This document shows positions 14,853-24,762 of a DNA stretch of 38,992 nucleotides, one piece after another. The translations under genes and the position numbers were made by a program. The notes beneath the pieces are model-generated. The model was not told the DNA's origin, did not search any database, and worked only from the letters and a program-made list of their open reading frames with translations. Every line of letters begins with the position of its first letter. The first letter of the stretch is position 1. Location: assembly GCF_022848905.1 (NCBI RefSeq), contig NZ_JAFIRA010000039.1:1-38992 (forward strand), in the 5' to 3' direction. The stretch is from Thermostichus vulcanus str. 'Rupite'. GTDB taxonomy: Bacteria > Cyanobacteriota > Cyanobacteriia > Thermostichales > Thermostichaceae.

Positions 14853-15445
14853 GATGCTGCAACTCCTGAACTTCTAAATGGGATCCAAAAAAATAGGATG
14901 GCGGCAAACGCCACTTAAGGTAGCTAGAGCTAGATCCAGTCGATTGGGTCGATTGAACAGACTTAGCTCTTTGAGGGCAGACTGACCTCAGGAACTTCAA
15001 CATTCTCAAGCTTTCACTCATCAGGAATCAACCTAGTATCTGACCGACACATCTGCCCCAAGAACAGATACAGAACAGAAGGTTCTCTCGATAATTGATT
15101 CAATTCTGTTAAAAGCTCCAACTTCAACTCTACCCAGTATTCACCAACAGCAAATGCAAATCACTCCTCTTGATAGAAACCATCGAGAAACCATCGCGGT
15201 CAGCTGAGATCAAGTCTGAGAAGTCTTCGCAACAAGTTACTTTCCACAAACTAATTTATCATCCGGAACCAGCTTCTAGCCCACCTTAAGGTCTTATTTT
15301 CTGGCTATTTTGCCGAATTTGATACATACCTTCACAACTTCTTCAGGTTGCTGCCCATTTCCCCAGAATGAACCTCAGGGAAAGCCGTGGTTGCCATTTG
15401 TGGATGCCCGAGCCTTATCTCCCGGCTAGTCACGGTTTTACAGCC
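14853..15445. other. Long gene-free upstream region of rpaB
   Basis: About 590 bp with no convincing gene. The part near rpaB is AT-rich and repetitive in short motifs (AGTCGATTGGGTCGATTG near 14938, CAACTTCAACTCTACC near 15119, GAAACCATCGAGAAACCATCG near 15177), compatible with a promoter and a long leader. One DnaA-box-like TTTCCACAA occurs near 15243. From ~15365 the sequence becomes GC-rich and passes into the 27-bp repeat nest. No terminator with a T-run was identified. Confidence 0.5.
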
Positions 15446-15648
15446 CTTGGCGCCAAGAGCACGCTAGCGCGTCTGTCTCCAACAGGCTTTGCCAACGCCT
15501 CTCGTCCTACGGACGACCCGGAGGGTCATGGTGCTCCGCACGACCCGGAGGGTCATGGTGCTCCGCACGACCCGGAGGGTCATAGCGACCCCAACACCAG
15601 TCATCTGGCACGGGGTCAATCCCCTTTGCGACAGCGGTGCGGAGCACC
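15446..15648. repeat. Nest of 27-bp modular palindromic repeats
   Basis: At least six 27-bp units lie almost end to end. They are 15446-15472 (CTTGGCGCCAAG plus an ACGCTAGCGCGT dyad), 15473-15499 (CTGTCTCCAACAG plus GGCTTTGCC), 15504-15530 (GTCCTACGGAC then GACCCGGAGGGTCATG), 15531-15557 and 15558-15584 (GTGCTCCGCAC then GACCCGGAGGGTCAT plus G or A), and 15622-15648 in reverse orientation (GTGCTCCGCAC then CGCTGTCGC on the minus strand). Units carry two small dyads; in the best-preserved type these are an 11-nt hairpin (4-bp stem) followed by a 13-nt hairpin (5-bp stem, loop GGA) and a 3-nt tail. Arms change together between copies (GTGC/GCAC versus GTCC/GGAC). The size and form recall the small dispersed repeats described from Nostoc genomes. 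Confidence 0.8.
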
Positions 15649-15954
15649 CTAGCTCTTTTGAAATCGGTTAGGGACACCACCGTTGTTATGGTCAACCTGT
15701 GTTCACTTTAGGGATGCAGAGCATGAAAGGGTTGTAAGCAGAGTGACACTGTGAGAAGACGCTAAACATTGGGGGCCGCCTCAGCAAAAGCTCTGGAGGG
15801 TCGCCCAGAAGCTGGGCTTGTCTATGTTTGTCTATGTGATCTTTGGACGAGATTGGCATAGAGCATTCCCACCTCGGTTACGCCAGGTGGGAGAGCTTCA
15901 TGCGTTATAGATCTGATAGATTTGGTAAATCTAAAGCAGAGAAGGAGTTAACTC
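15649..15954. other. Non-coding stretch with hairpins upstream of DUF4079
   Basis: About 300 bp without a gene. It has a hairpin GCCCA…TGGGC near 15813-15827 and a stronger one, TCCCACCT (15867-15874), 10-nt loop, AGGTGGGA (15885-15892). The hairpin pair could belong to a small RNA or a structured leader of the downstream leader ORF/DUF4079 transcript. It does not match 6S RNA, tmRNA, RNase P RNA, SRP RNA or Yfr1 landmarks that I know. Confidence 0.45.
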
Positions 15955-23940: not shown

Positions 23941-24130
23941 TTGGGTTGGCCATCGGCAACTACCAGCGGGGGATGCTCAGAGGTTCCCACCCCAAGTCTG
24001 CCACCTTGGTGAAGCGCCAGGATGGTTCCTACTACATCCAAATTGGTCTGGAATCGGAGCCACCTAAGCCGCAAGGCGGGGATAAGGTGTTGGGTGTGGA
24101 TTTGGGGCGGACAGATATTGCTCACACACA

Positions 24131-24157
24131 GTGCTCCGCACCGCTAACGCGAACGGA
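24131..24157 (+). repeat. 27-bp repeat inserted in tnpB, copy 1
   Basis: GTGCTCCGCAC then CGCTAACGCGAACGGA. It lies between codons for HT(Q) and GQHWNG of TnpB; removing exactly 27 nt restores a family-like IAHTQGQHWNG. The first module is the same perfect GTGC-TCC-GCAC hairpin as in the nest at 15.5 kb. The second module is the 'CGCT' variant also seen in reverse at 15622-15648. Confidence 0.75.
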
Positions 24158-24494
24158 GGGGCAGCACTGGAATGGACAAGACATAACCAAGGTTCGGGAC
24201 CACTTTGCCAGCTTGAGAGCGAAGCTCCAGCACAAGGCCAGTAAGGGCACACGCAGTTCTAGACGCAGATGCCGTCAACTGCTGCAACGGTTGTCTGGCC
24301 GGGAGCGTCGGTTTCAAAGTTGGGTGAATCACAATGTTTCCAAACGCATCGTGGCAACCGCCGAAGCCCTTTCTGCCAGTGTTGCACTGGAAGATTTGAC
24401 CGGGATTCGGGAACGGGTGAATCAACAGCCTCGCAACAAGACGGAGCGCAGACGCAGCAACAGTTGGGCGTTCCACCAGTTGAGGCTGTTTATC

Positions 24495-24521
24495 GTCCTC
24501 CGGACGACCCGGAGGGTCATT
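24495..24521 (+). repeat. 27-bp repeat inserted in tnpB, copy 2
   Basis: GTCCTCCGGAC then GACCCGGAGGGTCATT, nearly identical to 15504-15530. It adds nine codons (VLRTTRRVI) between HQLRLFI and GYKALRSG; without it the reading QLRLFIGYKAL matches the usual TnpB sequence. The flanks are TATC before and GG after. Confidence 0.85.
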
Positions 24522-24633
24522 GGCTACAAGGCGTTGCGGTCTGGGATCAAGGTTGTGTTTGTGGATCCTAGGTACACCAGTTAAACCTGTCATCGCTGCC
24601 TGCACATTCATCCCGATCCCGACCAGTCGTATC

Positions 24634-24660
24634 GTGCTCCGCACGGCGCGGAGCGCCACT
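24634..24660 (+). repeat. 27-bp repeat inserted in tnpB, copy 3
   Basis: GTGCTCCGCAC then GGCGCGGAGCGCCACT. The second hairpin is GGCGC-GGA-GCGCC in place of GACCC-GGA-GGGTC: both arms have changed while the GGA loop is kept. Removing 27 nt rejoins TAT-C and GG-AGG to give SYRRGKQFQCGHCGW, the expected TnpB sequence. The flanks are TATC and GG, as for copy 2. Confidence 0.85.
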
Positions 24661-24735
24661 GGAGGGGTAAGCAGTTCCAGTGTGGGCATTGTGGTTGGCA
24701 TGGGGATGCAGACTTTAACGGAGCCAAGAATATTC

Positions 24736-24762
24736 GTGCTCCGCACCGCTGGCGCGACCAAG
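24736..24762 (+). repeat. 27-bp repeat inserted in tnpB, copy 4
   Basis: GTGCTCCGCAC then CGCTGGCGCGACCAAG, placed between AKNI and (x)IGALVSR of TnpB. The first module is perfect and the second is the CGCT variant. The left flank is ATTC, similar to the other copies; the right flank is CA rather than GG, so its exact right edge is less certain. Confidence 0.7.

Follow-up and report, generated by a model that had tools for sequence, protein, structure and literature searches.

The intergenic stretch at 15446-15648, upstream of rpaB, raises the question of how several short palindromic repeats of seemingly fixed length came to lie nearly end to end in one place. The first-pass annotation had read it as at least six 27-bp units of four types, inserted or copied by one mechanism of constant length. 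The window, which is the whole stretch analysed here (38,992 nucleotides of Thermostichus vulcanus str. 'Rupite'), is one entire contig (G000:C39) of a 3.7-Mb assembly of 120 contigs, and encodes cyanobacterial RpaB (equivalog match) together with other cyanobacterial proteins; a tRNA/tmRNA search found none. The intergenic placement upstream of rpaB held. As a whole, the locus is very probably best explained by a nest inside a miniature non-coding transposon (MITE) combined with a mobile family of about 100 double hairpins, the insertion of which adds exactly 27 bp.

Strong folding is predicted for the stretch, and this together with its location upstream of rpaB would suit a conserved structured RNA gene or an rpaB leader. 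That reading is exceedingly improbable, as the sequence is multi-copy in the genome, a search of the stretch against Rfam gave no match, and the conserved rpaB upstream flank stops near 15413 in relatives, short of the element, with the right flank mapping elsewhere. A conserved single-copy RNA gene, the contrary case named in the first-pass annotation, is refuted by the copy number and the lack of an Rfam match. The block at 14853-15413 upstream of rpaB shows about 77–80% DNA identity in congeners over hundreds of bases, near the level of the coding part, before ending abruptly, and is possibly a leader or an upstream gene.

The container element

The reported interval lies wholly inside the MITE, occupying its left two-thirds, and the element is bounded by terminal inverted repeats (TIRs) of the CAGCCCTTT type (Table 1). 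A BLAST comparison of the region with its own genome gave 72 matches with consistent breakpoints, and their alignment yielded an element family with ends TACAGCCCTTT...AAAGGGCTGTA and at least 50 relatives in the genome. The fetched loci held 57–59 TIR-bounded elements, a few of which are chance or nested pairs, and the exact TIR was matched 92 times against once for a reversed control pattern. Two of the types previously listed as 27-bp units, CTTGGCGCCAAG and CTGTCTCCAACAG, proved to lie in the left end of the MITE: in the fetched copies they were always joined to it, with no sign of independent movement among those copies.

Table 1 Features of the MITE, its small units and a degraded tnpB in the window.
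Feature	Position	Strand	Basis
MITE (non-coding minitransposon), 298 bp including flanking TA at both ends	15439..15736	+	TIRs TACAGCCCTT / AAAGGGTTGTA
Left TIR, running into CTTGGCGCCAAG dyad at 15446-15457	15439..15448	+	Alignment of copies
MITE-internal sequence with CTGTCTCCAACAG dyad (15473-15485)	15473..15499	+	Only inside MITE copies; missing from short-form copies, e.g. L025
27-bp double-hairpin unit 1, GTCCTACGGAC-GACCCGGAGGGTC-ATG	15504..15530	+	Covariance model match 15503-15529
27-bp unit 2, GTGCTCCGCAC-GACCCGGAGGGTC-ATG	15531..15557	+	Covariance model match 15530-15556
27-bp unit 3, GTGCTCCGCAC-GACCCGGAGGGTC-ATA	15558..15584	+	Covariance model match 15557-15583
24-bp unit, related family GTGCTCCGCAC-CGCTGTCGC..., reversed (CGCT variant)	15624..15647	-	Tandem copies 24 bp apart in C11 and L235
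Right TIR, AAAGGGTTGTA	15726..15736	-	Alignment of copies
24-bp-family-like unit in degraded tnpB	24131..24153	+	No empty site found
27-bp unit, GACCC type, in frame in same degraded tnpB	24494..24520	+	Diverged tnpB paralogue L235 without unit; model match
27-bp unit, second hairpin GGCGC-GGA-GCGCC, same degraded tnpB	24633..24659	+	Paralogues L166 and L234 without unit; model match
24-bp unit, 3' end of same degraded tnpB	24735..24758	+	Missing from tnpB end flanking L203 MITE

One copy (L203) has inserted into the terminal part of an element of IS200/IS605 type. Compared with the tnpB paralogues L364/L367, this MITE is a net insertion of 174 bp with a duplicated TA, and the two MITE-free paralogues read CCTGGT-TA-TCTTGC or TATTTTGC at the insertion point. 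The duplication is demonstrated for this single copy, whereas the window copy has flanking TA only. The comparison of the locus among relatives that had been proposed as a check turned up no empty counterpart of the window MITE in G001-G005; the two flanks map to separate places there. The container fits an IS630/Tc1-mariner-type MITE, with which it has in common the TA duplication, short inverted repeats starting with CAG and no coding capacity. It differs in two respects: its inside is pieced together from smaller repeats, and the DDE_3 loci and distant TIR pairs that were inspected yielded no autonomous partner whose ends match, none of the five DDE_3 loci having ends like those of the MITE. 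Directly to the right of the MITE, the segment 15766-15887 is repeated at G000:C13:54095 and C18:18620 with 83% identity.

A family of double-hairpin units

Apart from MITE sequence, the nest consists of three 27-bp units and one 24-bp unit. The former are tandem at 15504-15584 with spacings of 27 and 27, near-identical and in register, and each consists of two adjacent dyads, a GTCC/GTGC stem followed by a GACCC stem. The earlier description of two dyads per unit was therefore borne out for all three, and the GTCC/GTGC-GACCC type is real, but the count of six fell to three, since one of the remaining units is 24 bp long and the others are MITE sequence. A uniform 27 bp does not hold across the nest, because the fourth (CGCT) type belongs to the 24-bp family; length is constant per family and not overall.

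The 27-bp unit has a 4-bp stem and a 5-bp stem with 3-base loops, no gap between the hairpins, and AT. This double-hairpin geometry (stems 4+5, loops 3+3) was present five times in the window, whereas dinucleotide shuffles predict 0.1. The genome-wide listing that had been called for was obtained with a covariance model (R1) built from 31 distinct units, and it is on this search, not on a scan for structure, that the unit count rests. The model found 101 copies in this genome and 22 in the congener G003, against 0–2 each in G001, G002, G004 and G005, one in G007 and one weak match in the distant G013 (2e-4). When 400 kb of unselected sequence was scanned for structure alone, the 27-bp geometry was not in excess, because such DNA contains few units and these occur in clusters. 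The GTSC-GACCC units are members of a dispersed family of 25-bp double hairpins, about 100 in number. Single units sit in genes, IS200/IS605 genes and MITEs, and others form rows with an exact period of 27 bp. The hairpin GACCCNNNGGGTC occurs at 48 places with a close tandem spacing that is always 27, and every tandem spacing among GACCC-type units is likewise 27. The sister family keeps to 24 bp, as seen from unit starts 24 apart in G000:C11, from an array in L235 and from a net insertion of 24 bp. Long 24-bp arrays in L235 and L113 (G000:C48 and C11) are broken by runs of N that mask their true extent, and the one in L235 lies in frame within a tnpB.

Stem pairs change on both sides, with GTGC/GCAC against GTCC/GGAC in the first stem and GACCC/GGGTC against GGCGC/GCGCC in the second. 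Paired changes were seen at pair 4-10 in 14 of the 31 model sequences, at 14-24 in five and at 16-22 in five, and the covariation score over these units was 0.240, compared to 0.090 after shuffling and no more than 0.063 when partners were slid. Because pairing capacity was one of the criteria by which the 31 units were chosen, and the paired fraction is therefore inflated, the tally was redone on 66 sequences taken without a pairing filter, and the same paired swaps appeared. This covariation supports the view that unlike unit sequences have one geometry in common, maintained via paired changes.

Empty sites, filled sites and the history of the array

Flanks of dispersed units were joined, searched for within the genus and then aligned. 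The unit in G000:C8 corresponds to exactly 27 missing columns in G002 and G005 (junction GACGTT|ATCGTAGG), the C13 unit has an empty site in G003 and G002, and the C16 unit has one in G001, making three dispersed units with clean orthologous sites 27 bp shorter; at the C56 unit, relatives show a gap that is larger and messier than 27 bp. Among tnpB paralogues in this genome, single 27-bp units account for differences at three points and a 24-bp unit for a difference at a fourth. The unit is mobile by this evidence, as orthologues and paralogues that lack it are shorter by exactly its length, and the proposed mechanism of constant length stands to that extent. For non-tandem units outside MITEs, the flanks were AT...AT in 39 of 61 cases and AA...AA in three of 61. 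The net gain of 27 bp allows two readings, a 25-bp unit that duplicates AT on insertion or a 27-mer with a terminal AT set beside an existing AT. In the degraded tnpB at 24050-24760, which is broken by an in-frame stop after FVDPRYTS, about 650 bp hold four double-hairpin units that represent three families.

An ordinary minisatellite, that is, a tandem repeat internal to the MITE that grows and shrinks by slippage while the unit itself is immobile, would suit the near-identical, in-register tandem copies. The sole large difference between the window MITE and the L004 MITE is one clean gap of 54 bp (2 x 27), and the single-unit MITEs L004 and L002 hold a chimeric unit (GTCCTA+CGCAC) that joins the window's first and last unit types; the gap and the chimeric unit of L004 also fit slippage or recombination. 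The chimera suggests a contraction of the array in L004 rather than a gain in the window. Against an immobile unit stand its solitary occurrences at dozens of unrelated loci, clean orthologues 27 bp shorter being available for three of them, and the paired stem changes that distinguish neighbouring units. We consider the minisatellite a very unlikely account; for the family as a whole it is refuted by the dispersed copies and empty sites, and slippage may have contributed to array growth alongside insertion. For the mobile family within a MITE, one unit would have entered an ancestral MITE, later copies would have inserted at the terminal AT of a resident unit, or arisen by slippage, to give three in a row, and collapse between the first and last units would have produced the single-unit MITEs.

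Outside the arrays, dispersed units are single and often in frame inside genes. An insertion of 27 (or 24) bp preserves the reading frame and five of the six unit frames are free of stops, which would explain why the unit is tolerated; its role is likely selfish. In-frame units show how peptides of 8–9 residues enter proteins.

Possible modes of spread and known repeats

Of the units, 95 depart from the consensus by no more than five differences; MITEs contain 22 of these, IS200/IS605 genes 25, and six are found beside such genes, so that the IS200/IS605 genes hold about a third of the units outside MITEs. In 400 kb of unselected sequence these genes make up 0.56% and MITEs 0.11%, figures from which fold-enrichment is approximate, as the loci were gathered via units and IS copies carry units along. 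Counted as distinct sites, 18 are in IS genes, compared with 49 distinct non-MITE flanks. The first-pass suggestion that repeats prefer to land in other repeats agrees with this outcome, the units being heavily concentrated in mobile DNA, but selective survival in dispensable DNA explains the concentration as well as targeting does.

Copying could proceed via a folded single strand, of DNA or RNA, recognised by an enzyme acting in trans. In a REP/REPIN-like version, hairpins would be moved in trans on single-stranded DNA by a Y1 (HuH) transposase of IS200/IS605 or RAYT type, the unit ending in AT and inserting 3' of AT. The genome has at least six substantial Y1 transposase genes, a hairpin substrate is present, and units are concentrated in and beside IS200/IS605 genes, in one case directly after a tnpA stop and in another at a tnpA start. 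Survival could account for the concentration in IS genes, however, and no tnpA was seen enclosed by two units in the way that RAYT genes are by REPs, leaving this a tentative and somewhat unlikely route. In L153 and L237 the unit ends GTC-ATG, and a Y1 transposase gene apparently starts at that ATG.

Spread via an RNA intermediate, reportedly proposed by Elhai et al. for some cyanobacterial small dispersed repeats (SDRs), would be in keeping with compensatory changes that conserve structure rather than sequence, but DNA hairpins would yield the same covariation. Distinct sites in IS genes are divided into nine sense and nine antisense, which does not favour insertion in one sense into transcribed RNA. 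We hold this route, too, to be possible but on the unlikely side. More doubtful is the specific proposal that a fold-defined 25-bp family is moved in trans by a candidate Y1 transposase of the IS200/IS605 group, acting on single strands and joining at AT; exact-period arrays would then arise by repeated insertion at the AT that closes each unit. If this is true, no smaller unit would be moved by a known type of enzyme. We know of no solved copying mechanism for DNA pieces of about 25 bp. The genus offers empty and filled sites, one fixed length, a dinucleotide target and a list of candidate transposases, and its members differ sharply in copy number (101, 22 and 0–2); fixed length, AT target, copy-number contrasts and candidate transposases make the mechanism testable by comparison and in the laboratory.

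The SDRs that Elhai et al. described in 2008 from Nostoc punctiforme and relatives (SDR1-8) reportedly measure 21–27 nt, have a common secondary structure with compensatory changes, are nested in minitransposons and in each other, and have been recently mobile. The units here resemble them in length (27-bp and 24-bp net insertions), in dispersal over many sites of a cyanobacterial genome (101 model matches), in a two-hairpin structure with compensatory changes, in their presence within minitransposons or each other (22 of 95 units in MITEs, and tandem rows) and in recent mobility, given the empty sites. They differ in their host, a hot-spring cyanobacterium of the Thermostichus type, a lineage that to our knowledge falls outside the subgroup reported by Elhai et al. 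in 2008; an exact net insertion of 27 or 24 bp with AT on both sides is documented here. Owing to this feature-by-feature match and the absence of a REP/REPIN tag, the units are filed as a new member of the cyanobacterial SDR kind, likened by the features reported for SDR1-SDR8. Rickettsia palindromic elements (RPE) are palindromic repeats of about 100–150 bp found in frame in protein genes; the units share the palindromic character and in-frame insertion, but are 24–27 bp long and cyanobacterial.

The SDR work (Elhai et al. 2008, Genome Res 18:1484) is cited in PMC3116915. REP and REPIN elements, associated with RAYT transposases, are likewise short, palindromic, dispersed, non-autonomous and hairpin-forming (PMC3116915, PMC3733652). 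The units here differ in having two adjacent unlike hairpins, often inserted inside coding sequence, and in occurring beside some tnpA genes as single units only. The GTAG or CGTC tag beside the REP/REPIN hairpin was not found at the units, which are flanked by AT/C; CGTC is present in some units, but within the first stem. A further short palindrome is frequent in the window, the octamer GGGATCCC, with 53 occurrences against 0.84 expected, compared to two of HIP1 (GCGATCGC); it is an over-represented palindrome of this lineage, different from HIP1.
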